This document shows, piece after piece, positions 2,122 through 58,078 of a stretch of DNA of 64,000 nt. The DNA is taken from NCBI RefSeq assembly GCF_003967355.1, contig NZ_BIFH01000048.1:1-64000 (forward strand). The letters are read 5' to 3'. The position numbers and the translations under genes are program-made. The stretch's first letter is position 1. The number at the start of each line of letters is the position of its first letter. This stretch comes from Embleya hyalina (GTDB taxonomy: Bacteria; Actinomycetota; Actinomycetes; Streptomycetales; Streptomycetaceae). A model generated the notes under the pieces. It did no database searches. It was not told where the DNA came from and worked only from the letters and a program-made list of their open reading frames with translations.

Positions 2122-3981
2122 GTGGGACAGACCGAACGTGGCGCACGCACCGGCAGTCCGGCCGAACTGGCCTGGTTGCGCGGCATGGACGCCTACGTCG
2201 CCGGCGAATACGGCCAGGCGGAGGTGCAGTTCCGGGCCGCGGTCGAGGCCGATCCGGGAATGGCCGACGCCTGGCTGGGGCTGCACGCGCTCAAGGTCGA
2301 GGTGGCCACCGCGGTGGTCGCCATGCACACCCATCGCGAGCGCTTCGGGGAGCAGCGCGCGAAGTACGGCCGACCGCTCAACTCCTGGTACTGGCTGGGC
2401 TGGTGGGTCCAGCTCGTGCTGGAGACCCCGCGCGACCTGGCGCTCGCGCACGCCTCGCACTGGTTGGACGGCCGGCACCTGCCCGAGTTGGACGCCGCGC
2501 TCTCGTTGTGCCCGCCCGCCGAGCAGGACGCGGCCACCCGCTTCCTGCTCGCCTGTCGGGCCTATCTGGGCAAGGACTGGCAACAGCTGCTCCGGCACAC
2601 CGCCGGCCTGGACGACGACGCGCTGCTCGGCGTGGAGGCGGGCCTGTTCGCCGGCATGGCCCGAGTCCGCCTGGGGCTGTACGCCAAGGCCGAACAGGTG
2701 CTCGCCACCGCCCTGGTGCGCTGCCGCTCGGAGCACCCGCAGCGCAAGGAGTTGCGCTACTGGCTCGCCCGCGCGTACGAGGAGACCGGCCGCACCCCGG
2801 CCGCGCTGCCCCTGTACCGCGCGGTGCACCAGGCCGACCCGTCGTTCATGGACACCGCCGCGAGGTTGTCCTCGCTGGCGGCCGGCGAGCCGCTGGACGA
2901 GTACGGCGGGATGACCGCGCGCCTGGCCGGCCCCGTGGTCGGTCGCGGCCCGCTGCCCGACGTGCTCCCGCCGATACCCGCGACCGCGCCCCCGCCCGCC
3001 GGGCCGCCGCCCGCGGTCGAGACCGAGCGCGAGCCGGAGCCCGTCCCGGACGGCGAGGCCGACCCGCAGGCCGACGTCGACGCGCGCGCGGCCGACCGGG
3101 CGGCGCCGATGCGCCCCGCCGCAGCCCCCGAGGAACTCGCCCTGGTGCTGGCCGAATTGGAGTCGATGGTCGGCCTGGAGCCGGTCAAACGCCAGGTCCG
3201 GGCGCTGTCCGCGCAGATGCGGATGGCGCGGCTGCGCGAGGCGCAGGGCCTGCCCGCGCAGGCACCCAAGCGGCACTTCGTCTTCTCCGGCCCCTCCGGC
3301 ACCGGCAAGACCACCGTGGCCCGCCTCCTCGGCCGGGTCTTCGCGGCGCTCGGCCTGCTGGAGAGCGATCGCCTGGTCGAGGCCCAGCGCTCCGACCTGG
3401 TCGGCGAGTATCTGGGCCAGACCGCGGTCAAGACCAGCGAGTTGATCGATTCGGCGCTGGGCGGCGTGTTGTTCGTGGACGAGGCGTACGGACTCACCAA
3501 CGTGGGCTACTCCAAGGGCGACGCGTACGGCGACGAGGCGCTTCAGGTGTTGCTCAAGCGGGCCGAGGACGACCGGGACCGGCTGGTGATCATCCTGGCC
3601 GGTTACCCCGAGGGCATGGACCGGCTGCTCACCTCGAACCCCGGCCTGATGTCGCGCTTCACCACCCGGGTCGAGTTCCCCTCCTACGGCGCGGAGGACC
3701 TGGCCCGGATCGCCGAGGTGATGGCGGCCGCCGGCGGCGACGTGTGGGACGAGGACGCGGCGGCCGAGTTGCGCAGCATCACCGGGCACGTCCGCGAACA
3801 GGGCTGGATCGACGAACTGGGCAACGCCCGATTCGTCCGGACCCTGTACGAGAAATGCTGCATGTATCGGGACGTGCGCCTGGTCGAGTTGCCGGAGGGC
3901 CCGGATCTGGCCGAGTTGACCACGCTGCGGCTGTCCGACCTGTTCCAGGCGTACGGCGATCTCGCCGACGGCCGGGGATAG
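2122..3981 (+). CDS. EccA-like AAA+ ATPase (CbxX/CfxQ type) with TPR N-terminus
   Basis: Cytoplasmic AAA+ ATPase of 619 residues. The N-terminal ~280 residues are helical TPR-like repeats resembling EccA of type VII secretion. A Pro/Glu-rich linker follows, then a CbxX/CfxQ-type AAA module. Walker A GPSGTGKTT lies near residue 391 and Walker B GVLFVDEA near 448. The start is the GTG at 2122, preceded by a purine-rich ribosome binding site; the frame upstream shows no family similarity. EccA proteins act on substrates of ESX secretion systems. No EccB-E, WXG70 or mycosin gene is nearby, so a role in secretion is family inference. Confidence 0.85.
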   Translation: MGQTERGARTGSPAELAWLRGMDAYVAGEYGQAEVQFRAAVEADPGMADAWLGLHALKVEVATAVVAMHTHRERFGEQRAKYGRPLNSWYWLGWWVQLVLETPRDLALAHASHWLDGRHLPELDAALSLCPPAEQDAATRFLLACRAYLGKDWQQLLRHTAGLDDDALLGVEAGLFAGMARVRLGLYAKAEQVLATALVRCRSEHPQRKELRYWLARAYEETGRTPAALPLYRAVHQADPSFMDTAARLSSLAAGEPLDEYGGMTARLAGPVVGRGPLPDVLPPIPATAPPPAGPPPAVETEREPEPVPDGEADPQADVDARAADRAAPMRPAAAPEELALVLAELESMVGLEPVKRQVRALSAQMRMARLREAQGLPAQAPKRHFVFSGPSGTGKTTVARLLGRVFAALGLLESDRLVEAQRSDLVGEYLGQTAVKTSELIDSALGGVLFVDEAYGLTNVGYSKGDAYGDEALQVLLKRAEDDRDRLVIILAGYPEGMDRLLTSNPGLMSRFTTRVEFPSYGAEDLARIAEVMAAAGGDVWDEDAAAELRSITGHVREQGWIDELGNARFVRTLYEKCCMYRDVRLVELPEGPDLAELTTLRLSDLFQAYGDLADGRG

Positions 3982-44463: not shown

Positions 44464-45264
44464 CTACGGGCGGGCGAAGGCGATGGCGGCCTCGCCGGTG
44501 TGCATCAGGAAGGTCAGGGTTTCCTGGAAGTAGAGGTGGATGCCCGCGTCGTCGTGGGACTGGTAGCCGATGGACAGGTCCTGGCCCAGGCGCAGTTCGT
44601 AGTCGCCGCCTCGGGTGGACAGGACGAACGCGCCGTCGATGGCGGGGGCCCAGATCGGCTCGCCGGCCAGGATTCGGGTCAGGTGTTGGCGGATCGGGTA
44701 GCCGTGGTCGGCCGCCTCGTTGACCGCGGTGTACGCCTCCGGGCCGAGCACCAGGTGGTACGGGCCGTTCACGCCGGCCAGGCGCAGTTCGGTCAGCGCC
44801 CGGCTGACCGCGTCCGGATAGTCGCGGGCGTCGGTCGGGAGCGACACCGGCACGTTCGTGGACGCCCGGCGGATGCCCTCGATCGACGCCGCCGGGTAGC
44901 CCTCGAAGATCAGCCGGTCCTCGGCGAACGCCGTCTTGCGCGCCGCGTCCTTGACCGGCTGCCAGTCCGCGTCCGCGGCACCGCGCTCGACCGCGTCGAC
45001 GGCGCTGCGGGCCACGGTGAACGGCACGCGCAGTTCGATCAGCGGGCGGAACCGGCGGCTGCGGGCCAGGACGCCGTCGGCGGGCGGCTCCAGGTCGGTC
45101 AGGTGGCCGGTCCCCACGCCGGCCGCCGCGCTGCCGTCCGGCCCGGTCACGTCGACGACGCGCCGGCCCGCGACGTGCTGCTTGAACGTACGCCTGGCCT
45201 CGTCCTCGAGGTCGGCCCACGCGGCGTCGGAGATCGGGGCGAGTTCGCGGTGGAGGTTGTTCAT
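44464..45264 (-). CDS. Family 1 encapsulin nanocompartment shell protein
   Basis: 266 residues, the standard length for the HK97-fold T=1 shell. Diagnostic stretches are MNNLHRELAPISDAAW, DLEDEARRTFKQHVAGRRVV, FEGYPAASIEGIRRAS and the C-terminal YFQETLTFLMHTGEAAI. It self-assembles into protein cages that enclose cargo enzymes carrying a loading peptide. The ATG at 45264 overlaps the DyP stop as ATGA, coupling shell to cargo translation. Confidence 0.96.
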   Translation of the reverse strand: MNNLHRELAPISDAAWADLEDEARRTFKQHVAGRRVVDVTGPDGSAAAGVGTGHLTDLEPPADGVLARSRRFRPLIELRVPFTVARSAVDAVERGAADADWQPVKDAARKTAFAEDRLIFEGYPAASIEGIRRASTNVPVSLPTDARDYPDAVSRALTELRLAGVNGPYHLVLGPEAYTAVNEAADHGYPIRQHLTRILAGEPIWAPAIDGAFVLSTRGGDYELRLGQDLSIGYQSHDDAGIHLYFQETLTFLMHTGEAAIAFARP

Positions 45265-46406
45265 GGGGTGGGGCTCCTGGTCTCGGGGGTTGTCGCGGGG
45301 TGGGCTGCGGGGTCGACCGAGTGGGCGTCCGGGTCGGCCGCGCGAAGCGCCCCGATGCCGAGCGAGCCGTCCGCCCGTGGCGCCGCCGGGGTCGGGTCGG
45401 CCGGGGTCTGGTCGGCCGGGGCCGCGCGCTCGATCGGCGCCTCCGGCGGGCCCGGCGGGTCGTCCAGGAAGTCCGCCGTCGGCACGAAGAACAGCCCGCC
45501 GGTGACCGCCGTCGAGAAGTCCAGGATGCGGTCGTAGGTGCCCACCGGGCGGCCGATGAACATGTTCTCCAGCATCTGCTCGGTGACGCTCGGAGTGCTG
45601 GAGTAGCCGATGAAGTAGGTGCCGAACTCACCGCTGCCCACCGACCCGAACGGCATGTTGTCGCGCAGGATGTCGCGCTCGGTGCCGTCCGGGTCGGTGA
45701 TCGTGGTGAGCGCGACGTGCGAGTCGATCGGCTTGATCGCGTCCGGCAGTTCGAGGTCGGACAGCTTGGTCCGGCCGATCACCTTCTCCTGCGCCTCCAC
45801 GGGCAGCGCGTTCCAGGACCGCAGGTCGTGCAGGTACTTCTGGACGATCACGTAGCCGGCGCCGACGAAGTCCGGGTCCTCCTCGGCGGTGATCGTGACC
45901 GCCTCGAACGCGTCCCGCCCCTCCGGGTTTTCCGTGCCGTCGACGAAGCCCATCAGGTCCCGCTGGTCGAAGTAGCGGAAGCCGTGCACCTCGTCGACCA
46001 CGGTCGCCGCGCCGGCCAGCCGGTCGGTCAGCACCGTGGCCAACTCGAAGCACAGGTCGATCGACCGCGCGCGCAGGTGGAAGAGCAGGTCGCCGGGCGT
46101 GGACACGGCCTGGTGCTTGGCGCCCACCAGTTCCCGGAACGGGTGCAGTTCCGCCGGGCGCGGGCCCGCGAACAGCCGATCCCAGGCGTCCGAACCGATG
46201 CCGACGACACACTTCAGGTCGCGCTCGGGGCGCCGGAAGCCGACCGAGCGGCGCAGTCCGGCCAGGTCGGCGAGCAGGTCGCGGACCGTGGCCTCGGCCG
46301 CCGGGCCGGCGTCGATGGTCAGGACCAGGAACATCGCCGCCGTGGCCGGCAGGCCCAGGATCGTCTGCGGCCGGGGCGGCGGCGTCGCTTCGGTCTGTAC
46401 GCACAT
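45261..46406 (-). CDS. Encapsulated DyP-type peroxidase
   Basis: 381 residues. Haem peroxidase with GFVDGTENP at about 154-162, proximal His in the DSHVAL stretch, and the distal Arg in RDNMPFGS. The catalytic domain ends near 305; a Pro/Ala-rich linker follows, then the encapsulin loading peptide DGSLGIGALRAA, which directs the enzyme into the shell encoded next. About 24 residues follow it, whereas such peptides usually close the protein. The ATG at 46406 matches homologues but has a weak ribosome binding site. Its role is oxidative-stress defence (family knowledge). Confidence 0.95.
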   Translation of the reverse strand: MCVQTEATPPPRPQTILGLPATAAMFLVLTIDAGPAAEATVRDLLADLAGLRRSVGFRRPERDLKCVVGIGSDAWDRLFAGPRPAELHPFRELVGAKHQAVSTPGDLLFHLRARSIDLCFELATVLTDRLAGAATVVDEVHGFRYFDQRDLMGFVDGTENPEGRDAFEAVTITAEEDPDFVGAGYVIVQKYLHDLRSWNALPVEAQEKVIGRTKLSDLELPDAIKPIDSHVALTTITDPDGTERDILRDNMPFGSVGSGEFGTYFIGYSSTPSVTEQMLENMFIGRPVGTYDRILDFSTAVTGGLFFVPTADFLDDPPGPPEAPIERAAPADQTPADPTPAAPRADGSLGIGALRAADPDAHSVDPAAHPATTPETRSPTP

Positions 46407-48377: not shown

Positions 48378-49370
48378 TCAGGGCCGCGCGCAGAGGCGGT
48401 CGATTTCGGTGATCTCCGGCTCGGTCAGGTCGGGTTGGCCGACCGCGGACAGGTTTTGCTCCAACTGCCGCACGCTGCTTGCTCCGACGATGACCGACAC
48501 CACCCTCGGGTCGCGCAGGATCCAGGTGAGGGCGAGTTGGGCCAGGGTTTGGCCGCGGTCGCCGGCGAGCTTGTTCAGGGCGCGCAGCAGGGTCAGGCGC
48601 TCCTCGGTGAGGGCGTCCTCGGTGAGGAAGTGGCCCACCGCCATCCGCGAGTCGGCCGGCACGCCGTTCAGGTAGCGGTCCGTCAACAGGCCCTGGGCCA
48701 ACGGGGAATACGCGATCAGCGCGGTTCCGGTCTCGCCGACCGCGTCCAGGACGCCCCGCTCCGGCTCGCGGTCCAGGATCGAGTACGCCGACTGGTTGAG
48801 CAGTACGGGAGTGCCGAGGTCGCGCAGGATCTCCACGGCCCGTCGGTGCTCCTCCGGACCGTAGTTGGAGATGCCGGCATACAGCGCGCGCCCGGACCGA
48901 ACGGCCGTGTCCAGCGCGCCCATCGTCTCTTCCAACGGGGTGTCCGGGTCGTAGCGGTGCGAGTAGAAGACGTCGACGTAGTCGAGTCCCATCCGGCCCA
49001 ACGACTGGTCCAGGCTGGCCAGCAGGTATTTGCGCGAACCGCCGTTGCCGTACGGCCCCGGCCACATGTCCCAGCCGGCCTTGGAGGCGATGAACAGCTC
49101 GTCGCGATAGGGCCGGAAGTCGGCCCGGAAATGCACCCCGAAATTGGCCTCGGCCGATCCGTACGGGGGCCCGTAATTGTTCGCCAGGTCGAAGTGCGTC
49201 ACCCCGAGGTCGAAGGCGCGCCGCAGCACCGCCCGCTGGACCTCCATGGGCTGGGTGTCCCCGAAGTTGTGCCACAACCCGAGCGACACCGCGGGCAACT
49301 CGACCCCGCTGCGTCCGGCACGGCGATAGCGCATGGATTGGTATCGGTTCTCGGCGGCAGAGTGGATCAT
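48378..49370 (-). CDS. Aldo/keto reductase (L-glyceraldehyde 3-phosphate reductase-like)
   Basis: 330 residues, TIM barrel NADPH reductase. The tetrad is visible: Asp in THFDLANNYG, Tyr in NNYGPPYG, Lys in FIASKAGW and His in VFYSHRYDPDTPLEETM. GYG-type NADPH motif: VGASSVRQLEQNL near the end. The closest named relative is YghZ, which reduces L-glyceraldehyde 3-phosphate and methylglyoxal. The ATG at 49370 has GGGGGA just upstream. Confidence 0.9.
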   Translation of the reverse strand: MIHSAAENRYQSMRYRRAGRSGVELPAVSLGLWHNFGDTQPMEVQRAVLRRAFDLGVTHFDLANNYGPPYGSAEANFGVHFRADFRPYRDELFIASKAGWDMWPGPYGNGGSRKYLLASLDQSLGRMGLDYVDVFYSHRYDPDTPLEETMGALDTAVRSGRALYAGISNYGPEEHRRAVEILRDLGTPVLLNQSAYSILDREPERGVLDAVGETGTALIAYSPLAQGLLTDRYLNGVPADSRMAVGHFLTEDALTEERLTLLRALNKLAGDRGQTLAQLALTWILRDPRVVSVIVGASSVRQLEQNLSAVGQPDLTEPEITEIDRLCARP

Positions 49371-49399
49371 TCCCCCATCTTCGCCCTCGACCGCCACCC

Positions 49400-49428
49400 T
49401 TGACACCCCCGGATGTCCCTCTTAAGGT
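49400..49428 (+). promoter_or_regulatory. Near-consensus promoter of the glycerol-type operon
   Basis: TTGACA at 49400-49405, a 17-base spacer and TAAGGT at 49423-49428 match the principal sigma factor consensus almost fully. Transcription would start near 49435, leaving a leader of about 110 bases before the MFS gene. Confidence 0.65.
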
Positions 49429-49434
49429 CCAGAG

Positions 49435-49544
49435 CATTCTTTGGCAGGAACAGACGAAGACCACCTGTCGGTGGCTTCGCTGTGCCCTCCTACGCGTCAG
49501 CACTCGCGTGTCACCGACCGGTCCTTTTTTCCGAGGACGGGAAC
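49435..49544 (+). promoter_or_regulatory. Structured leader with possible SD-masking hairpin
   Basis: Hairpin A: CGAAG-a-CCACC at 49455-49465 pairs with GGTGGCTTCG at 49470-49479 around a TGTC loop, one bulge. Hairpin B: CCGGTCC at 49518-49524 can pair with GGACGGG at 49535-49541 (six of seven), enclosing a T6 run at 49525-49530 and covering the ribosome binding site of the MFS gene. The operon encodes a GlpP-family RNA-binding protein, so this leader is a candidate target (inference). Confidence 0.4.
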
Positions 49545-51008
49545 ATGGCACAGCAGCCGAGCGTCAGAGGCGTCAAGGACGTCGTCGCGCTCATCGACCG
49601 GCAGGGGACCATCTCCGGCCGGTCCAGGGTCATCTGGTTCCTCGTGTTCGGGGGACTCTTCCTCGACGCGTACTCCAACGCCGCACTCGGCGCCGGGCTC
49701 GCCCCGATGACGAAGCAGATGGACCTGAGCAGCACCCAGGTCTCCATCCTCACCGCCACCGCACCCGCGCTGGCCATCCTGTTCAACCCGATCGGCGGCT
49801 GGCTCGCCACCCGGATCGGCCGGGTGCCCCCGCTGCTGCTGGCCAAGCTGTTCGCGCTGGCCGGCGCGGTGATCGCGGCCACCGCCGACGACTTCCTCGT
49901 GGTGTGGATCGGCCGGGTCCTGGTCGGCGTGGCCTACGGGGTCGACTTCGCGGTGGCCATGGCGCTGCTCGCCGAGTACACGCCCAAGTCGCTGCGCGGC
50001 CGGCTCAACCTGTGGCAGGGCATCTGGTACATCGCCACCACCGGCAACCTGCTGCTCACCCTGATCTGCTTCAAGTTCGACGTCGGCGCCGACATCTGGC
50101 GCTGGTCGGTCGGCTCGGCCGGCGTGATCGCGCTGGCCCTGTTCCTGCTCCAGTGGGCGTTCCTGGTGGAGAGCCCCACCTGGCTGGCCACGAAGGGCCG
50201 ACTGGAGGACGCGGTCCGCAATCTGCGCCGCATCTACGGCATCGAGGCGGTCGCCGCCGCCCCGACCGTCGCCGGCGCCGTGCCCGACAAGGCCGACGCC
50301 GAGGAGGCGCCGCCGAACGTGGGGATGAAGCAGGCCGGGATCCTGTTCCGCGGCTCGTACCTGCCGCGCACGCTGCTGTCCTCGGCGATCTCGCTCGGCC
50401 AGTCCATGCAGTACTTCGCGGTCGGCTGGTATCTGCCGGTGATCAGCCTGGCGATCTTCGGCAACAGCTTCGAGAAGGCCACCATCGGCTCGATGGTGTT
50501 CAACGCCTTCGGCATCGTCGGCGGCCTGCTCTCCGCGTACTTCGCCCGCCGGCTCGGCCTGCGGATCAGCTCGGCGCTCGGCTTCGGCGGCGTGTTCGTG
50601 ATGCTGCTCGGCATGGGGCTGACCTTCGACCGGGTGCCCACCTGGATCGCGTTCATCCTCCCGGCGCTGTTCATCTTCTGTCACTCCGCCGGCCCCGGCG
50701 CCAACGGCAAGTCGATCGCCGCGCTGTCCTACCGCAGCGAGGTGCGCACCCTGGGCACGGGCGTGACCGGCATGATCGGCAGCTTCGGCAGTGTGGCCGG
50801 GCTGTACCTGTTCCCGCAGATCAAGGACGGCATCGGGCTGGACAAGACCTTCATGGTCCTGGCCGTCGTCCCGCTCCTGGGCCTGCTCACCTGCCTGGCG
50901 ATCCGCTGGGACCCGACCCGGGCCGTCTCGCCCGACGAGGACCCGAACGTGCCGACCATCACCGCGCCGTCGGCCGGGCCCGCGAACCCCGCGTTGGTCA
51001 CCCGCTGA
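49545..51008 (+). CDS. MFS sugar/polyol transporter
   Basis: 487 residues, about 12 helices, sugar-porter type. The loop after helix 2 is GGWLATRIGRVPPLL and the helix 4-5 region is LVGVAYGVDFAVAMALLAEYTPKSLRGR, the usual sugar-porter signature. A cytoplasmic loop at about 215-260 is Ala/Glu-rich. First gene of the operon; probably imports glycerol or a related polyol or glycerophosphodiester, judging by the kinase and dehydrogenase that follow (inference). Confidence 0.88.
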   Translation: MAQQPSVRGVKDVVALIDRQGTISGRSRVIWFLVFGGLFLDAYSNAALGAGLAPMTKQMDLSSTQVSILTATAPALAILFNPIGGWLATRIGRVPPLLLAKLFALAGAVIAATADDFLVVWIGRVLVGVAYGVDFAVAMALLAEYTPKSLRGRLNLWQGIWYIATTGNLLLTLICFKFDVGADIWRWSVGSAGVIALALFLLQWAFLVESPTWLATKGRLEDAVRNLRRIYGIEAVAAAPTVAGAVPDKADAEEAPPNVGMKQAGILFRGSYLPRTLLSSAISLGQSMQYFAVGWYLPVISLAIFGNSFEKATIGSMVFNAFGIVGGLLSAYFARRLGLRISSALGFGGVFVMLLGMGLTFDRVPTWIAFILPALFIFCHSAGPGANGKSIAALSYRSEVRTLGTGVTGMIGSFGSVAGLYLFPQIKDGIGLDKTFMVLAVVPLLGLLTCLAIRWDPTRAVSPDEDPNVPTITAPSAGPANPALVTR

Positions 51009-51080
51009 AGCGGGTCCGTCACGCGAGACTCGCACTCGGATAAGCGGATCAAGCGGAGATATCGCACCGAAAGGGCTGTG

Positions 51081-52607
51081 ATGACGAAGACGTTGCACCA
51101 CCCCGGCCGGCGCCTGGGCATCCTGTCCGTGGACGAGGGCACCACCGGGACCCGCGCCGGAGTCGTGCAGGACTCCGGGGCGGTCACCCATCTGGCGTAT
51201 CGCACGATCGCCGTGGACCACCCCGACGAGGACTCGGTCGAGCAGGACCCGATGGAGATCTGGTCGGCCACCCTCGACGTGTGCCGCGAGGCCCTGGCCG
51301 GGGCCCGCGCCGACGGCGTGGAGATCGTCGCGCTCGCGCTGTCGACCCAGCGGGCCACCGCGATGTTGTGGGATCGGCGGACCGGCCTGCCGCTGGTGCC
51401 CGCGTGCGTGTGGCAGGACCGGCGCTACGCCCGGCACCTGCTCGGCTACGAGGCCGAGTGGGACGAGCGGCTGCTCGCCCGGCTCGGCCGGCCGGTGGGC
51501 AGCCGGGCGCCGTTCCACTGGGCCGCGCGGCAGATCGCCGAGCGGCCGGAGGTGGCCGAGGCGTACCGGGCCGGCACGCTCGTGTTCGGCACCGTGGACA
51601 CCTGGCTGGCCTGGCGCTTCACCGGCGGGGCCGCGCACGCGGTCTCGGCGAGCAACGCCGGCTCGATCGGCGCCTACCTGCTGCGCGAGCACGCGTGGGA
51701 CCGCGAGTGGATCGAACAGCTGGGCTACCCGCTCGAACTACTCCCGGACCTGTTCGCCGACGACGACCTCGGCTACGGCCGCACCGACCCCGAACTGCTC
51801 GGCGTGGAACTGCCGTTGGCGGCGGTGATGGGCGACCAGCACGCGGCGCTGATCGCGCTCGGCGGACTGGCCGCCGGCCAGGGGATGTGCATGTACGGCA
51901 CCGGCACGTTCGTGGACGCGGCCACCGGCCGCACCCCCGCGATGCCGATCCCGGGCATCGCCGGCGTGCTGGCCCAGCCCGGTTGGCGCCAGGGCGACAC
52001 CACGCACTTCAGCCTGGAGGCGTACTGCTCGACCACCGGGTCCGCGCTGCGCTGGTTGTGCGACGACCTGGGCCTGTTCGCCTCGCCGGCCGAGATCGGC
52101 GAACTCGCGGCGGGGGTCGGCGCCGGCTCGGGCCCGCGCGAGTGGTTCGTGCCCGCGCTGGCCGGGATCCGCACCCCCGAGTGGCGGCCCGAGGCCCGGG
52201 CCGCGCTCGGCGGCCTGACCCTGGCCACCACCCGGGCCGACGTGGCCCGGGCCGTGCTGGACGGGATCGCGCACTCCGTGTGCGACCTGATCGACGGCGT
52301 CGCCGCCACCATGCAGGCCCCGTTCGCCCGCCTGCGGGTGGGCGGCGGGGTGGCCGGCAGCGACACCCTCATGCGGATCCAGGCCGACCTGGTCGGCCTG
52401 CCGATCGAACGCGCCGCCGATTCGGCGACCGCGAGCCTGCGCGGCACCGCCTATCTGGCGGGCGTACGCGAGGGCCTGTGGTCCTCGCTCGACGAGGTGG
52501 TCGAGGCCCAACCGCGCGGCCGGATCTTCGAACCGACCACCACCCCCGACCGGCGCGCCGCACAGCGCGCCGCCTGGCGGAGCGTGCTCGCCGGCTACCC
52601 CGCCTGA
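51081..52607 (+). CDS. FGGY-family carbohydrate kinase, glycerol-kinase-like
   Basis: 508 residues with an actin-like ATPase fold. The first phosphate loop is DEGTTGTRAGVV; others are YGTGTFV and GGVAGSDTLMRIQADLVGLP, closely following glycerol kinase (there DQGTTSSR, YGTGCF and a similar GG-LMQ stretch). It likely phosphorylates glycerol or a polyol to the 3- or 1-phosphate. The ATG at 51081 follows AAGGG by 5 bases. The next gene encodes the matching phosphate dehydrogenase. Confidence 0.88.
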   Translation: MTKTLHHPGRRLGILSVDEGTTGTRAGVVQDSGAVTHLAYRTIAVDHPDEDSVEQDPMEIWSATLDVCREALAGARADGVEIVALALSTQRATAMLWDRRTGLPLVPACVWQDRRYARHLLGYEAEWDERLLARLGRPVGSRAPFHWAARQIAERPEVAEAYRAGTLVFGTVDTWLAWRFTGGAAHAVSASNAGSIGAYLLREHAWDREWIEQLGYPLELLPDLFADDDLGYGRTDPELLGVELPLAAVMGDQHAALIALGGLAAGQGMCMYGTGTFVDAATGRTPAMPIPGIAGVLAQPGWRQGDTTHFSLEAYCSTTGSALRWLCDDLGLFASPAEIGELAAGVGAGSGPREWFVPALAGIRTPEWRPEARAALGGLTLATTRADVARAVLDGIAHSVCDLIDGVAATMQAPFARLRVGGGVAGSDTLMRIQADLVGLPIERAADSATASLRGTAYLAGVREGLWSSLDEVVEAQPRGRIFEPTTTPDRRAAQRAAWRSVLAGYPA

Positions 52608-52673
52608 GCCGAACCGCCCGTACGACCCGGCGGCGCGAACCGTGAACCGCCGGACAGACCCCAGGAGTTGATT

Positions 52674-54392
52674 GTGATTTCGATGCCCGCCCGCAAGCCA
52701 CGACGGGCGTCGGCGGCGGCCACGAGAAGCACCCCGCTGCTTCTCGACCGCGGCCGGGCCAAGCACCGACTCGCGGACCACCGCTTCGACGTGCTCGTCG
52801 TCGGCGGCGGCGTCACCGGCGCGTACGCCGCGCTCGACGCGGCCTCGCGCGGCCTGGACGTGGCCCTGGTGGAGAAGGACGACTTCGCCTCCGGGACCTC
52901 CTCCAAGTCGTCGAAGATGGTGCACGGCGGCCTGCGCTACATCGAGCAGGGCAACGTCAACCTGGTCCGCCACTCGCTCCTGGAAAGACACCGCTTCCGC
53001 AAGAACGCGCCGCACCTGGTGCACCGCCTGCCGTTCCTGTTCCCGATCCTGGAGAAGGAGGGCGTCTTCGACGCCCGGCTCGCCAAGGGCTTCGAGGGCC
53101 TGCTGTGGACCTACGACCTGGTCGGCGGCTGGCGGATCGGCAAGCTGCACCAGCGACTGACCGTCGACGAGGTACTGGCCCACGCGCCGACGCTGCGCGC
53201 GGACAGCCTCCGGGGCGGGCTGATGTACTTCGACGGCCGCGCCGACGACGCCCGTCTGGTGCTGACCATCGTGCGTACCGCCGCCGCGCTGGGCGCCACC
53301 GTGCTCAACGGCGCCACGGTCGACCGGATCCTGACCGAACGCGGCCGCACCGCCGGGGCCCGGATCGAGGTCGACGGCGAGCGCTTCGACGTGCGCGCCT
53401 CCGCCGTGGTCAACGCCACCGGCGTGTGGAGCGACACCGTCGACGGACTGGCCGACGACGACCACCGCCCGCAGGTACGACCCGCCAAGGGCGTGCACAT
53501 CGTGGTGCCGTGGCACAAGGTCCGGATCGACTGCACGGTCACCGTGCCCATCCCGGGCCGGGCCCGCCGCGCCACCTGCACCCGCTGGGGCGACGCGGTC
53601 GTGCTCGGCACCACCGACGAGGACTACCGCGGCTCGATCGACGACGTGCACTGCACCCGCCCGGAGATGGAGTTCCTGCTCGAAGGCGCCAACACCGCGT
53701 TCGAGGGCCGGCTCACCCCGGACGACGTGATCGGCAGCATCGGCGGCCTGCGTCCGCTCGTCGGCGGCAAGGAGGGCGCCACCCTCGACATGAGCCGCGA
53801 CCACCACATCTCGGTCGGCCGCGGCGGCATGGTCACCGTCACCGGCGGCAAGCTCACCACCAGCCGGCACATGGGCGAACTGGTGATCGACAAGGTGATG
53901 CAGGTCCTGGGCCGCAAGGGCCGCAGCCGCACCACCAACCTGCCGCTGATCGGCGGCGCCGGCTACGACGCCGAGGCGGTCGCCGCGTCCGGCGGCCTGG
54001 CCGCGCACCTGGGCGAGCGCTACGGCACCGAGGCCCGCTTCGTCTCCGACCTGCTCGCCGAGGACGCCACGCTCGCCGAGCCGGTCGTCGCGGGCATGCC
54101 GTACATCAGGGCCGAGGTCGTCTACGCGGCCCGCTCCGAGATGGCCCGCTCGGTGGACGACGTGCTCTCCCGACGCACCCGCTCGCGCCTGTTCGCCCGC
54201 GACGCCTCGGCCGCCGCGGCCCCCGAGGTCGGTCGGCTGCTCGGCGCCGAACTGGGCCTGACCGCCGCGCAGATCGACCGCCAGGTCGCCGACTACCTCG
54301 CCGCCGTGCGGCACGAGAAGGCGGTCCTGCTCGGCGAGCCCGAAGAACCCACATCCGCAACGATCGACGCACCCCAGGGAGCCGCGAAGTGA
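52674..54392 (+). CDS. glpD: FAD-dependent glycerol-3-phosphate dehydrogenase
   Basis: Oxidises glycerol 3-phosphate to dihydroxyacetone phosphate, passing electrons to quinone. 572 residues. The FAD-binding motif VVGGGVTGAYAALDAA spans about 42-57, followed by the family signature SSKSSKMVHGGLRYIEQGN. The C-terminal DAO_C domain is present (VRAEVVYAARSEMARSVDDVLSRRTR-like). GTG 52674 follows CAGGAG by 6 bases. Its TGA overlaps the next start as GTGA. Confidence 0.94.
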   Translation: MISMPARKPRRASAAATRSTPLLLDRGRAKHRLADHRFDVLVVGGGVTGAYAALDAASRGLDVALVEKDDFASGTSSKSSKMVHGGLRYIEQGNVNLVRHSLLERHRFRKNAPHLVHRLPFLFPILEKEGVFDARLAKGFEGLLWTYDLVGGWRIGKLHQRLTVDEVLAHAPTLRADSLRGGLMYFDGRADDARLVLTIVRTAAALGATVLNGATVDRILTERGRTAGARIEVDGERFDVRASAVVNATGVWSDTVDGLADDDHRPQVRPAKGVHIVVPWHKVRIDCTVTVPIPGRARRATCTRWGDAVVLGTTDEDYRGSIDDVHCTRPEMEFLLEGANTAFEGRLTPDDVIGSIGGLRPLVGGKEGATLDMSRDHHISVGRGGMVTVTGGKLTTSRHMGELVIDKVMQVLGRKGRSRTTNLPLIGGAGYDAEAVAASGGLAAHLGERYGTEARFVSDLLAEDATLAEPVVAGMPYIRAEVVYAARSEMARSVDDVLSRRTRSRLFARDASAAAAPEVGRLLGAELGLTAAQIDRQVADYLAAVRHEKAVLLGEPEEPTSATIDAPQGAAK

Positions 54393-55930
54393 TCAGCAGG
54401 CAGACCATCACCAACCCGTTCAACCGCGGCGACTACATCGTGGGCGCGCCCACCCCGGCCAAATGGGCCCGCAACACCCCGATCGGCAGCGGCGACGCGT
54501 CGCTCCAAGGCCGCGTGGTCGAGGTGCCCGCACAGGTGATCGAGGACCTGCGCGGCGTGGCGAAGGCCGTGTACACCGACCGCGACGACGTGGTCGCCCG
54601 TACCCGCGACTGGTGGGCCGGCACCATGATCGGCGAGACCGACGGCCGCCCCGCCACCCCCGACGCGGTGATCGTCGAGGTCGTCGACGCCGACCAGGTG
54701 GCCGCCGTACTGCGGATCTGCCACGCCGCCGGCATCCCGGTCACCGCCTCCGCCGGCCGCAGCAACGTCACCGGCGCCGCGCTGCCCGTGCACGGCGGTG
54801 TCGTGCTCGACCTGTGCGGCCTGAACCGCATCGTCTCCTTCGACGCCGAATCGCTCGTCGTCGACGTCGAGGCCGGCATGTTCGGCGACCTGTTCGAGAA
54901 GGAACTCCAGGAGACCCACGGCGTCACCACGGGACACTGGCCGTCGGCGTTCGCCGTCTCCACCGTCGGCGGCTGGATCGCCTGCCGCGGCGCGGGCCAG
55001 CTCTCCACCCGTTACGGCAAGATCGAGGACATGGTCGTCGGCGTCGACGTGGTGCACGCCGACGGCACCCGGGCCACCTACGGCGACTACCCGCGCGCGG
55101 CCACCGGCCCGGACCTGCGGCAGATCTTCATCGGCTCGGAGGGCACGCTCGGCGTGATCGTCTCCGCGCGCATCCGGGTGCACCCGCTGCCCACCTACGC
55201 CAAGGCGCTCGCGTTCGGCTTCGACACCTTCGCCGAGGGCCTGGACGCGTGCCGCAAGATCATGCAGCGCGGCGCCACCCCGGCGGTGTTGCGCCTGTAC
55301 GACAAGCTGGAGAGCGGGGTGCACTTCGACCACCCCGAGACCAACCTCCTGCTGATCGCCGACGAGGGCGACCCGATCCTGGTCGACGCGATGCTCAAGG
55401 TCAGCGAGGAGGTCTGCCTGACCTACGGCCCCGAACTGGACAGCGACGCCGTGTTCGAGCGCTGGCTCAGGGACCGCATGCTGGTCGGCAAGTCGTCCGA
55501 CGGCTTCACCCCGGGGCCCGGCTTCGTCGCCGACACGCTGGAGATGGCCGGATCGTGGACCGCGCTCGGCGAGGTGTACGACGAGGTGGTCGCGGCGATC
55601 CAGGCGGTGCCCGGCACGCTCGCGGCCTCCGCGCACCAGTCGCACGCGTACACCGACGGCGCCTGCGTCTACTTCTCGCTGCGCGGCGACGTGGACCGGC
55701 CCCGGCGCCGCGACTGGTACCGCGCGGTGTGGGACGCGGCCAACGAGGTGCTGATCCGGCACGGCACCGCGCTCAGCCACCACCACGGTTGCGGACTGCT
55801 GCGCGGCCCGTACCTGCCCGCCGCGCTCGGTGCCGGGTTCGACACGTTCGCCAAGGTCAAGGCCGGCCTCGACCCGGCCGGAATACTCAATCCTGGCAAA
55901 CTGGGCCTGCCCAACCGCTTCGACGCGTGA
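54389..55930 (+). CDS. FAD-binding oxidase, alkyl-DHAP-synthase-like
   Basis: 513 residues of the VAO/FAD_binding_4 family. The FAD PP-loop appears as TASAGRSNVTGAALPVHGG near 125-145, and the C-terminal HHHGCG near 465 matches alkyldihydroxyacetonephosphate synthase (AGPS), which makes ether-lipid precursors from acyl-DHAP. Coupled to glpD, which makes DHAP. Whether it makes an ether bond or oxidises a glycerol derivative is not settled; no DHAP acyltransferase gene is nearby. Confidence 0.85.
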   Translation: MISRQTITNPFNRGDYIVGAPTPAKWARNTPIGSGDASLQGRVVEVPAQVIEDLRGVAKAVYTDRDDVVARTRDWWAGTMIGETDGRPATPDAVIVEVVDADQVAAVLRICHAAGIPVTASAGRSNVTGAALPVHGGVVLDLCGLNRIVSFDAESLVVDVEAGMFGDLFEKELQETHGVTTGHWPSAFAVSTVGGWIACRGAGQLSTRYGKIEDMVVGVDVVHADGTRATYGDYPRAATGPDLRQIFIGSEGTLGVIVSARIRVHPLPTYAKALAFGFDTFAEGLDACRKIMQRGATPAVLRLYDKLESGVHFDHPETNLLLIADEGDPILVDAMLKVSEEVCLTYGPELDSDAVFERWLRDRMLVGKSSDGFTPGPGFVADTLEMAGSWTALGEVYDEVVAAIQAVPGTLAASAHQSHAYTDGACVYFSLRGDVDRPRRRDWYRAVWDAANEVLIRHGTALSHHHGCGLLRGPYLPAALGAGFDTFAKVKAGLDPAGILNPGKLGLPNRFDA

Positions 55931-55958
55931 GGCGGCCGAGACCCAGCCCAGGTAGGTC

Positions 55959-56615
55959 ATGAACGCCAGTCGACGCCCCGCGAGCGCGCCCCGGATGTCC
56001 TCCGTGTTGTCGTCCGCCTTCGCCGAGGTACCCGTGATCGCGTCGATCATCGGACCCCAGCGCCTGCAGAACTTCCTCGGCGCGCCCGCACGGGTGTGCA
56101 TTCTCGCGTCCATCCCGGTCGGGCAGCTGCCGAACATCGTGCAGCTGCTCGGCCGGGCGGACAAGACGGTGTTCGTCAACGTGGACAGCTGCCCCGGCCT
56201 GGCCCAGGACAAGGGCGCGCTGGAATTCCTCAAGACGATGGGTGCGCACGGCATGGTCAGCACCCGGCTCTCGCTGATGGAGAAGGGCCGCCCGCTCGGG
56301 CTGCTGACCATGCAGAAGGTGTTCGTCACCGACCGCTCCAACATGCGCCGCAGCACCGACGCGATCGCGCGCGGCGGCCCCGACCTGGTCGAGATCATGC
56401 CGTCGCCGATCGTGGCCCGGATGACCCCCGAGGCCAAACGCGCGATGTCGCCGTTCGTCGCGGCCGGCTTCGTGGAGACCGCCGAGGACGCCGCCGCCGC
56501 GCTCGCGCTCGGCGCGGTCGCCGTGGCCACGTCCGACCCCCGGTTGTGGGATCTGCGACGCGACCGGCTCGGCGCGACCGCGCCACCCCCGCCATCCGCT
56601 TCCTCCGCTCCGTAG
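55959..56615 (+). CDS. glpP: GlpP-family glycerol-3-phosphate-responsive antiterminator
   Basis: 218 residues. Matches Bacillus GlpP along its length: VNVDSCPGLAQDKGALEFL, MGAHGMVSTR, GPDLVEIMPSPIV and FVAAGFVETAEDAAAALALG. GlpP binds leader RNA of glpD in the presence of glycerol 3-phosphate and prevents termination. Here it lies downstream of glpD in the operon, 28 bases after the AGPS-like gene. The N-terminal ~25 residues and the Pro/Ser-rich tail are extra. Confidence 0.88.
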   Translation: MNASRRPASAPRMSSVLSSAFAEVPVIASIIGPQRLQNFLGAPARVCILASIPVGQLPNIVQLLGRADKTVFVNVDSCPGLAQDKGALEFLKTMGAHGMVSTRLSLMEKGRPLGLLTMQKVFVTDRSNMRRSTDAIARGGPDLVEIMPSPIVARMTPEAKRAMSPFVAAGFVETAEDAAAALALGAVAVATSDPRLWDLRRDRLGATAPPPPSASSAP

Positions 56616-56633
56616 TACGTAGGAGAACCACCC

Positions 56634-56933
56634 TTGAGTTACGTAGTCGTCGCCCGCTATCTCACCCACCCCGACGCGCAGGACCGGGTACTGGCCCTGC
56701 TCGACGAGATGACCCGCCACTCGCTGGCCGAACCCGGCTGCCGGAGCTACCGCGTGCACCAGGGCACGGAGGAGGCCCGGACGATCGTGCTCGTCGAGGA
56801 GTACGACGCCGAGGCCGACTTCACCGCGCACTGCGCCTCCGCGCACTTCCGGGAGATCGTGCTCGGCGAGGTGGTGCCGCTGCTGGTGAGCCGGGACGTG
56901 GTCCGGCTCACCCCGCGCGAGGTCGCGCCGTGA
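56634..56933 (+). CDS. ABM-domain protein (antibiotic biosynthesis monooxygenase-like)
   Basis: 99 residues, one dimeric alpha/beta-barrel (ABM) domain: VVVARYLTHPDAQDRVLALL, EPGCRSYRVHQG, and VLVEEYDAEADFTAHCAS. The family includes quinone monooxygenases and YgiN-like proteins. The start is a TTG at 56634, rare but preceded by AGGAGA. The stop overlaps the next start as GTGA. Confidence 0.86.
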   Translation: MSYVVVARYLTHPDAQDRVLALLDEMTRHSLAEPGCRSYRVHQGTEEARTIVLVEEYDAEADFTAHCASAHFREIVLGEVVPLLVSRDVVRLTPREVAP

Positions 56934-58078
56934 GGATGCGGGCGGCCGTGCTGCGCGGGACTTCGCAGGCCCGGCCGTACGGGACGAGCCGGCCGGTCGC
57001 GATCGAGGACGTGGAACTGGGCGACCCGCGTGCGGGCGAGGTGCTGGTCCGGATCGCCGCCGCGAGCCTGTGCCACTCCGACCTGTCCGTGGTCAACGGG
57101 GATCGGGTCCGGCCGCTGCCGATGGCGCTCGGGCACGAGGCGGTCGGCGTGGTCGAGGCGGTCGGGCCCGGGGTGGACCGGGTCGTGCCGGGCGAGCACG
57201 TCGCGCTCGTGTTCGTGCCCAGCTGCGGCCACTGCGTGCGGTGCGACGAGGGCCGGCCGGCGCTGTGCTCGGCCGCCGCCGCGGCCAACGGCTCGGGCGG
57301 GCTGCTGCACGGGCCGTCGCTGCTCCGGGACGCGGGCGGCGCGGTGGTGCACCACCAGCTCGGGGTGTCCGCGTTCGCCGAATTCGCCGTGGTGGCGCAG
57401 GAGTCGGTGGTGCCGATCCCGCGCGACGTGCCGTTCGAGGTGGCGTCGATGTTCGGCTGCGCGGTGCTGACCGGGGCGGGTGCGGTGATCAACACGGCGG
57501 CGGTACGTCCCGGCCAGTCGGTCGCGGTGTTCGGCCTGGGCGGGGTCGGCCTGTCCGCCGTGCTCGGCGCGCGGGCGGCCGGGGCGTACCCGATCGTCGC
57601 GGTCGACCCGGTCCCCGCGAAGCGCGACCTGGCGCTGCGGCTCGGCGCGTCGCACGCCTTCCACCCGGACGAGGCGGTCGGCTCGATCGGCGACCTGATC
57701 GGCGGCGGCCCGGACGTGGTGATCGAGGCGGTCGGCAGCGCGGGCGTGATCGCGGACTGCCTGGCGGCGGTGGGCCGAGGCGGCCGGGTGGTCTCCGTCG
57801 GCCTGCCCGCGCCGGGACGGCGGCTGGACGCGGTGCCGGCCCTGGCCTTCGCCGGCGAGGGCAAGTCGCTGATCGGCTCGTACATGGGCGACGCGGTCCC
57901 CCGCCGCGACATTCCCCGCTACCTGGCCCTGTGGCGGGCCGGGCGGATGCCGGTCGAACTGCTGCACACCGGCACGGTGGAACTGGACGATCTGAACGAG
58001 GCGATGGAGGCGCTGGCAAGCGGCGAGGCGATCCGCCAGGTGATCCGCACGGGGGCGCCGGTGGGAGCGCGGCGGTAG
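56930..58078 (+). CDS. Zinc-dependent alcohol dehydrogenase
   Basis: 382 residues, medium-chain reductase. Catalytic zinc ligands are Cys in SLCHSDLS and His/Glu in GHEAVG; the structural zinc lobe CGHCVRCDEGRPALC has four cysteines. The NAD-binding motif is GLGGVGLSAVLGARAAG. Members of this group oxidise alcohols or S-(hydroxymethyl) thiols. Last gene of the operon; it may oxidise or reduce a glycerol-derived aldehyde (inference). GTG 56930, alternative ATG 56936. Confidence 0.92.
   Translation: MRMRAAVLRGTSQARPYGTSRPVAIEDVELGDPRAGEVLVRIAAASLCHSDLSVVNGDRVRPLPMALGHEAVGVVEAVGPGVDRVVPGEHVALVFVPSCGHCVRCDEGRPALCSAAAAANGSGGLLHGPSLLRDAGGAVVHHQLGVSAFAEFAVVAQESVVPIPRDVPFEVASMFGCAVLTGAGAVINTAAVRPGQSVAVFGLGGVGLSAVLGARAAGAYPIVAVDPVPAKRDLALRLGASHAFHPDEAVGSIGDLIGGGPDVVIEAVGSAGVIADCLAAVGRGGRVVSVGLPAPGRRLDAVPALAFAGEGKSLIGSYMGDAVPRRDIPRYLALWRAGRMPVELLHTGTVELDDLNEAMEALASGEAIRQVIRTGAPVGARR

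Follow-up and report, generated by a model that had tools for sequence, protein, structure and literature searches.

Introduction

The nearest published relative of the locus described here is the three-gene PA3026-PA3024 operon of Pseudomonas aeruginosa. The locus itself is a seven-gene operon of Embleya hyalina, found on the + strand of a 64,000-nucleotide stretch of contig NZ_BIFH01000048.1 (positions 1 to 64,000, hereafter the window), in which a FGGY kinase, a GlpD-like dehydrogenase and a flavoenzyme related to alkyl-dihydroxyacetone-phosphate synthase (AGPS) are encoded together with a GlpP-like protein. A search for the gene names of the P. aeruginosa operon returned a single paper (PMC8151288). 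According to the accessible part of that paper, the operon is activated by GliR together with the phospholipase C PlcA, its deletion has no phenotype on glycerol or on Biolog plates, and a synthetic direction is suggested by its authors (PMC8151288); the word 'ether' is absent. Like the Embleya locus, PA3026-PA3024 unites an AGPS-like protein (in our reading), a GlpD-like protein and a FGGY kinase in one operon, a comparison made from the published description. It differs in its gene order and in its AraC regulator, to which PlcA and a lipid kinase respond, and the part of the text available mentions no MFS carrier, GlpP, ABM protein or leader RNA (PMC8151288). A regulon that joins AGPS, GlpD and a kinase with a phospholipase C would also suit the breakdown of ether phospholipids.

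Three other described systems bear on the individual parts of the locus. In AGPS, C1 of the substrate joins N5 of the flavin, and loss of the acyl group gives an iminium between flavin and dihydroxyacetone phosphate (DHAP), which is then attacked by an alcohol, as set out in the accessible part of PMC3509576. Alkylglycerol monooxygenase (AGMO), which uses oxygen and tetrahydrobiopterin, was in 2021 called the only enzyme known to break alkylglycerol ethers (PMC7911779, in the part available). In Bacillus, GlpP bound to glycerol 3-phosphate opens a terminator that lies directly after the promoter (PMC9604022, likewise in part).

We propose that the conserved cassette to which the Embleya operon belongs catabolises glycerol capped at one end, by an AGPS-type cleavage and under the control of GlpP and a leader RNA, and we give this reading a rough probability of 0.52. 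The cap would be an alkyl, aryl or similar ether in the first place and a glycoside in the second. The fuller picture is put forward more tentatively, at somewhat less than even odds: an oxygen-independent cleavage of glyceryl ethers by an AGPS-type enzyme running backwards through a flavin N5 adduct, a new leader RNA whose mutually exclusive folds are switched by GlpP, and a use of the same enzyme clade in other kinase-linked catabolic operons. The titles and abstracts of the searched literature, whose coverage leaves out most subscription journals, hold no description of this gene set or its leader that we could find, only the three-gene relative of P. aeruginosa.

A conserved five-gene core

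An earlier reading of the window from its letters and open reading frames (the sequence-only reading) had recognised a seven-gene operon with two GTGA overlaps, and both its coordinates and its gene families were borne out by the open reading frames, by family searches and, for the AGPS-like protein, by its closest solved relatives. The seven + strand genes span 49545-58078 (Table 1); those for the GlpD-like and AGPS-like proteins share 54389-54392, and those for the ABM protein and the zinc alcohol dehydrogenase (ADH) share 56930-56933. The unit starts ~145 bp before the MFS gene, with a promoter-like sequence followed by a structured leader RNA, neither of which the sequence-only reading had noted. 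The genome of the host, a soil bacterium, comprises 12.05 Mb in 78 contigs, and the closest relative of its AGPS-like gene among the matches listed is that of Embleya scabrispora (93% identity).

Named genomes were scanned with the AGPS-like protein, which gave at least 575 relatives. The 80 top-scoring ones were taken, with as much as 10 kb of flank to either side, and three plasmid loci were added; since the choice went by AGPS similarity, the counts for these 83 loci describe a close clade. The genes for the MFS carrier, kinase, GlpD, AGPS and GlpP are contiguous and in this order in 76 of the 83, which supports the idea of one functional unit, and in a 77th locus (L017) the five follow the same order, interrupted by a single gap of >300 nt in the gene calls. 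Three cores are incomplete where a contig end cuts them (L016, L054 and L065), and two are variants that have neither MFS nor GlpP (L039 and L083). In L039, from the metagenome-assembled genome (MAG) RI_26, a gene for an IlvD/Edd-family dehydratase precedes kinase, GlpD and AGPS. The cassette of Brucella cytisi (L041) is broken: its leader RNA and AGPS gene are present, the MFS, kinase and GlpD genes are partial matches, and no GlpP was called. In 70 of 82 loci the GlpD and AGPS genes either overlap or lie directly end to end. This coupling, together with the same gene order in relatives from named genomes, excludes a chance arrangement; the synteny search that had been suggested as a check has thus been run, and the order is kept.

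Hosts of the cassette include Streptomyces, Amycolatopsis, Nonomuraea, Arthrobacter, Achromobacter, Cupriavidus, Paraburkholderia, Raoultella and Citrobacter, and it reaches from Actinomycetes to alpha-, beta- and gammaproteobacteria. Beyond the core, an ABM gene lies inside the same run in 50/83 loci, and an ADH slot at the end of the run is filled by a zinc ADH in 34/83 and by an unrelated iron ADH in 8/83 (one of them in Paracoccus jeotgali), the iron enzyme replacing the zinc one in several proteobacteria. The flanks of the cassette are mostly unrelated from locus to locus, and they were for this reason discarded as a hint of which group is released. A sample of 245 genomes from the order to which the window belongs had the AGPS gene at E<=1e-120 in 13, the home genome being counted. 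Because its flanks vary and its spread is patchy, the cassette is regarded as accessory and probably as moving horizontally.

An altered kinase and a separate glycerol cluster

In the sequence-only reading, an imported polyol would have been turned into DHAP by the kinase and GlpD. In a related alternative, the cassette would be a second pathway for a plain polyol (glycerol, erythritol or another C3/C4 compound), with the AGPS-like protein acting as a FAD dehydrogenase of the usual kind that oxidises a 2-hydroxy acid or a polyol phosphate. A kinase accompanied by GlpD does follow the logic of glycerol use, and the AGPS fold also contains lactate and glycolate dehydrogenases. However, a canonical glycerol cluster sits elsewhere in the home genome: on contig C26 a MIP channel, a canonical GlpK with its NQRE motif, an IclR-type regulator and GlpD are encoded together. 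This is the equivalent of the Streptomyces glp/gyl operon, which shares the kinase and GlpD families with the cassette and is here a separate locus. When the home GlpK was used as query against 12 genomes or records with cassette loci, a relative at 46-80% identity was present in 10/10 whole genomes, and the two plasmid records held the AGPS-linked kinase only. On these grounds a plain glycerol operon was rejected, and the conversion of a polyol to DHAP by kinase and GlpD alone is not supported.

The families that the sequence-only reading gave for the kinase and GlpD need one refinement. Judged by their sequences, both proteins are divergent relatives of GlpK and GlpD, because they score far under the curated NCBI cut-offs: 338.8 against 590.35 bits (TIGR01311) and 322.5 against 498 (NF000756) for the kinase, and 283.1 bits against the equivalog cut-off of 360 (NF008899) for the GlpD-like protein. 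The kinase site has changed in a consistent manner. In an alignment with ten canonical kinases, of which one belongs to the home genome and the other nine to GlpP-GlpK loci in further Actinomycetota, the Glu of NQRE is retained in 10/10 of these and in 0/81 cassette kinases, which have Ala (72), Cys (4), Ser (3), Pro (1, the broken L041) or Thr (1, P. jeotgali) in its place, which speaks against a plain polyol pathway. In the same alignment, the position of the AYFSG Tyr is Arg in 80/81 cassette kinases, with the loop shortened and replaced; other site residues (Arg, Trp, Asp and Gln) are kept. Three AGPS-linked kinases beyond the 81 (from Novosphingobium, proteobacterium G452 and Microbacterium sp. 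J1-1) have likewise lost the Glu, which is Ala or Thr. In E. coli GlpK, this Glu and the AYFSG Tyr are residues that hold glycerol. Loss of the Glu in kinases encoded beside an AGPS-type gene would be expected if that end of their substrate is blocked. In the GlpD-like protein, Arg, Lys, Thr and His positions that we take to line the phosphate and flavin site are invariant in 83/83 sequences and common to E. coli GlpD in the alignment.

The AGPS-type flavoenzyme and the proposed route

The closest solved relatives of the AGPS-like protein are the alkyl-DHAP synthases of Dictyostelium and guinea pig, which a profile search found at E 4.1e-64 (2uuu) and 1.3e-60 (4bby) versus 6.8e-43 for the best lactate dehydrogenase; a second search gave the same ranking. 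The residues that match Tyr578, Arg419 and His615-617 of guinea-pig AGPS are invariant in 84/84 sequences. Their positions follow the numbering of the aligned chains, some of which we take to be the Y578F and R419H mutants. Three paralogues in the home genome have an EHG motif and no His triplet, two of them carrying the AGDGN of 2-hydroxy-acid dehydrogenases. The cassette enzyme has HHHG, RxYD and the catalytic Tyr and not GEHG or AGDGN, motifs by which its assignment as a 2-hydroxy-acid dehydrogenase is disfavoured. Taken with the glycerol cluster and the altered kinase, they leave the plain polyol pathway unlikely.

Although the catalytic Tyr, Arg and His triplet are common to the cassette protein and eukaryotic AGPS (also ADPS), its best solved match, the two differ in length (513 aa versus 658 aa in the guinea-pig chain), in the catabolic operons that encode the bacterial protein and in the lack of an acyltransferase partner in the operon. 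This difference bears on a synthetic role, in which kinase and GlpD would give DHAP and the AGPS-like enzyme would make alkyl-DHAP for ether lipids, the direction proposed for PA3026-PA3024 in the part of PMC8151288 available. The intact catalytic residues would serve that direction equally. However, neither an acyltransferase that would supply acyl-DHAP nor a fatty-alcohol gene is among the seven genes of the operon (the only part of the genome searched for one), synthesis needs no importer, alcohol-oxidising step or altered kinase, and the sugar-type carrier would be left without an obvious role. Moreover, one relative lies with enoyl-CoA hydratases and others with sugar transporters. The synthesis of an ether-lipid head group, which the sequence-only reading had also entertained, is therefore disfavoured, and we consider it very unlikely.

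Of the alternatives in that reading, the degradation of glycerol ethers fits best, because the kinase has lost a glycerol-site residue, the AGPS residues are kept and an ADH of one of two unrelated families ends about half of the operons; the ether as substrate is what we infer from these features. In the route that we propose, the MFS carrier would import a 1-substituted glycerol, the FGGY kinase would phosphorylate its free end and the GlpD-like flavoprotein would oxidise C2, giving a 1-substituted DHAP. In the AGPS-type enzyme, Tyr428 would then take a proton from C1 and C1 would add to the flavin N5, after which the substituent would leave as an alcohol, water, the putative acceptor, would add to the flavin adduct, and DHAP would be released. 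Where an ADH is present, it would oxidise the released alcohol. The purpose of this route, the breakage of alkylglycerol ethers, would be that of AGMO, with the difference that the cleavage step would need neither oxygen nor tetrahydrobiopterin.

A leader RNA with alternative folds

Upstream of the MFS gene lies a conserved leader RNA (49443-49554) with a hairpin P1, a start-codon hairpin P2 and an alternative pairing PX (Table 1). In 52 of 74 leaders, a TTGACA-N17/18-TA match is found 25-37 nt before the CTG motif of P1. An equal score is reached by 5.7% of shuffled stretches; this is a consensus match only, and the promoter test is failed by 22 of the 74, many of them from Streptomyces. The P1 stretch of the window (49440-49492) folds at -26.7 kcal/mol with a z of -4.4, and eleven other folded leader stretches (one of which is a longer window cut) have z between -3.4 and -5.4. 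In the proteobacterial alignment, one base pair of P1 is AU instead of GC in 10/21 sequences. When P1 in this alignment was compared with 500 shuffles, its paired cells were matched by 0/500 and its covariation score by 3/500; on other measures, its pair-type count was beaten by 500/500 and its pairs changed on both sides were reached by 91/500.

The alternative helix PX involves a stretch ~40 nt beyond the apical motif of P1 and complementary to it, with p<=0.05 against shuffles in 58 of 75 leaders; three of the 78 leaders lack the apical motif by the search pattern, and all three were found by the model R1 described below. The two partners vary in concert from one lineage to the next, and the anti-element pairs with its own apical motif better than with the mean of other lineages in 73/73 leaders (mean score 23.0 vs 13.7), a count that is inflated by relatedness, the independent changes being on the order of five to eight lineages. 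In that comparison L051 and L057 were left out, lineage groups were set by hand and a shifted window was used for L052 and L056, whose leaders have a longer spacer and which were excluded from alignment A6. Against 500 shuffles the support for PX is modest, its covariation score being reached by 3, its paired cells by 14, its doubly changed cells by 30, its doubly changed pairs by 58 and its pair types by 63. P2-like folds are found in single sequences of L003, L045, L048 and L081, with weak covariation in the proteobacterial alignment. PX draws on strands that P1 and P2 also need, so that no more than part of this set of helices can form at one time, which is the anatomy of a switch. In Burkholderia arboris (L082), a gene for an IS110-family transposase lies between the leader RNA (3026-3073) and the MFS gene (4359).

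The same element might instead be a pair of DNA operators for a repressor. The anti-element forms an inverted repeat at ~40 bp that a looping repressor could use, and no U-run follows the hairpin in the window and in 39 of the other 74 leaders. On the other hand, a run of T4 or longer does follow P1 in 35 of the 75, the long stem with its bulge and loop is conserved, and the base-pair exchange in P1 is kept. The core also holds no other regulator gene, and the element co-occurs with GlpP. Operators of this kind are thus improbable.

The leader RNA goes with GlpP

The GlpP of the sequence-only reading is confirmed as a PF04309 protein (150.6 bits, gathering cut-off 27); that reading saw the protein only, and the leader adds its likely RNA target. 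The distribution of the leader was followed with R1, a sequence-only model built from 33 leaders (alignment A8, in which MAFFT misaligned the stems, gave no base pairs). In the home genome R1 has one match at E 1.5e-9, the next being at 0.24 (150 of 2296 candidates scored). Across 51 loci outside its training set it has a + strand match at E<=0.01 in 46 and none in five, namely L016, L054 and L065, which are truncated ahead of the leader, and the variants without GlpP, L039 and L083. A GlpP-like gene accompanies 45 of the 46 positive loci, the exception being the broken L041.

Conversely, at E<=1 R1 finds nothing in the eight AGPS operons that lack GlpP (L149-L156), in the other glp loci of the home genome (L098 and L099) or within 1.5 kb of 23 PF04309 matches in other Actinomycetota. 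Over 296 Actinomycetota genomes, with stricter filters, it is found in the home genome and two others; the matches in these two are antisense inside an aldehyde-dehydrogenase-like gene and were taken as chance. PF04309 itself is above its cut-off in 24 of the 296, the home genome being alone among its own, family and class kin. A search of Rfam 15 with positions 49350-49700 of the window gave no match at E<=1, and at gathering scores the leaders of five loci were empty apart from one unrelated ureB sRNA. The leader RNA and its GlpP partner are an additional new finding.

The co-occurrence of leader RNA and GlpP-like gene implies, as far as comparative evidence goes, a GlpP-type RNA control of a pathway other than that of glycerol. 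With the Bacillus subtilis GlpP/glp system the cassette shares a PF04309 protein and a leader hairpin directly after the promoter (PMC9604022, accessible part). It differs in its altered-kinase pathway, in its occurrence in Actinomycetes and Proteobacteria and in its start-codon hairpin and alternative pairing, a distinction drawn from the published account of the Bacillus system. The GlpP-like protein would bind the leader RNA and open its hairpins when a phosphorylated glycerol derivative, the candidate effector, is present. Control would be exerted by termination where a U-run follows P1, and otherwise by release of the start codon.

Other AGPS-type operons and the leaving group

AGPS-type genes are found in other settings as well, and homologues with the same signature adjoin a FGGY kinase and GlpD at some loci. 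In nine operons outside the ordered cassette (L083 and L149-L156; eleven plasmid hits, H8-H10 and H15-H22, were left out), a kinase gene is never more than two genes away from the AGPS-type gene (9/9), and most have a dehydrogenase too. Plasmids of Shinella, Labrenzia and Paracoccus contaminans (L150, L152 and L153) share one order: LacI, AGPS-type gene, xylulokinase, sugar ABC transporter, glycerol-dehydrogenase-like or iron ADH, and short-chain dehydrogenase/reductase (SDR). On a plasmid of Methylobacterium nodulans (L154), genes for PdxA and a four-carbon acid sugar kinase accompany the AGPS-type gene beside that for a DeoR regulator. In Raoultella (L156, G296:C3:275000-293000), a second AGPS-type gene accompanies FGGY and PfkB kinases, a DeoC-family aldolase, an RbsD mutarotase, a YhfZ-type regulator and a sugar MFS carrier, an operon that appears to encode a sugar pathway. 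The operon of P. jeotgali goes on with genes for an aldehyde dehydrogenase, enoyl-CoA hydratases, its iron ADH and a thioesterase and has a CoA-ligase-like gene upstream; these extra genes fit a route by which the released alcohol would be oxidised and then enter CoA metabolism.

The same chemistry might act on a different leaving group (a sugar, amine, sulfonate or halogen, as with glycosylglycerols), and the first product would still be a 1-substituted DHAP. The Sugar_tr-type carrier of the cassette points this way, and the sugar ABC transporters with xylulokinase, or the PfkB kinase, aldolase and mutarotase, that accompany AGPS-type genes elsewhere fit the release of a sugar. However, 42 of the 83 runs include an ADH, and glycosides are normally opened by simple hydrolases, which makes this variant rather unlikely.

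The cleavage of glycerol ethers under GlpP control has evidence against it as well. No ADH is present in the run in 41/83 loci (a few of them cut by a contig end or with an ADH further off), so that the alcohol step is not universal, and the ABM protein is without a place in the proposed scheme. Near one AGPS-like hit (L169), no gene for a kinase or GlpD lies within 1.5 kb. As P1 of the window is without a U-run, termination control is unsupported here and only translational control is left. We know of no assayed enzyme of this AGPS-like clade. Chemically, an alkoxide is a poorer leaving group than a carboxylate, and the accessible part of PMC3509576 reports no AGPS reaction that starts from an alkyl ether and runs backwards. 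Finally, there is the deletion of PA3026-PA3024 without a phenotype, though no glyceryl ether is named as tested in the part of that paper available (PMC8151288).

Neighbouring genes and coordinates

The divergent neighbour of the operon in the window is an aldo/keto reductase gene (48378-49406, - strand), and there is no AraC regulator at that position. Its start overlaps the -35 box of the cassette promoter, and its product resembles the L-glyceraldehyde-3-phosphate reductase YghZ (435.3 bits, curated cut-off 448). It was rejected as a member of the system, since L001 and L002 alone among 80 loci have a copy at >=90% close to the cassette. At 44464-46406 (- strand), an encapsulin shell protein (Linocin_M18, 1.3e-92) adjoins a DyP-type peroxidase, a classic encapsulin-peroxidase pair.

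Table 1. Features of the operon and its leader, in window coordinates
Feature	Position	Strand	Basis and remarks
Sigma-70-like promoter, TTGACA-N17-TAAGGT	49400..49428	+	Consensus match; predicted start just before the leader hairpin
Leader hairpin P1	49443..49490	+	Apical CCACC-UGUC-GGUGG, AGA bulge, conserved CUG apical motif
Second hairpin P2	49506..49554	+	Pairs the ribosome-binding site and two start-codon bases (fold of 49440-49560)
Anti-element GUCACCGAC, pairing with apical GUCGGUGGC (49467-49475) to form the alternative helix PX	49510..49518	+	Complementarity p 0.04 in the window
MFS carrier (Sugar_tr / MFS_1), 487 aa	49545..51008	+	Pfam; first gene of the conserved cassette; probable substrate importer
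FGGY kinase, glycerol-kinase-like, 509 aa	51078..52607	+	Pfam and NCBIfam; NQRE changed to TQRA, AYFSG loop remodelled
GlpD-like FAD dehydrogenase, 574 aa	52668..54392	+	Pfam and NCBIfam; predicted C2 oxidation of a phosphorylated 1-substituted glycerol
AGPS-type flavoenzyme, 513 aa	54389..55930	+	Y428, R302 and H464-H466 correspond to guinea-pig AGPS Tyr578, Arg419 and His615-617
GlpP-like protein (PF04309), 218 aa	55959..56615	+	Predicted RNA-binding regulator of its own operon
ABM-domain protein (PF03992), 99 aa	56634..56933	+	Pfam
Zinc alcohol dehydrogenase, 382 aa	56930..58078	+	Pfam and NCBIfam

Perspectives

If the proposal is true, it would name a reaction for a clade of bacterial AGPS-type flavoenzymes and, with it, a function for operons of the PA3026-PA3024 type. 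It would also widen the reach of GlpP-type RNA control, which was worked out on the glycerol genes of Bacillus, to a different pathway and to two further groups of bacteria, Actinomycetes and Proteobacteria.

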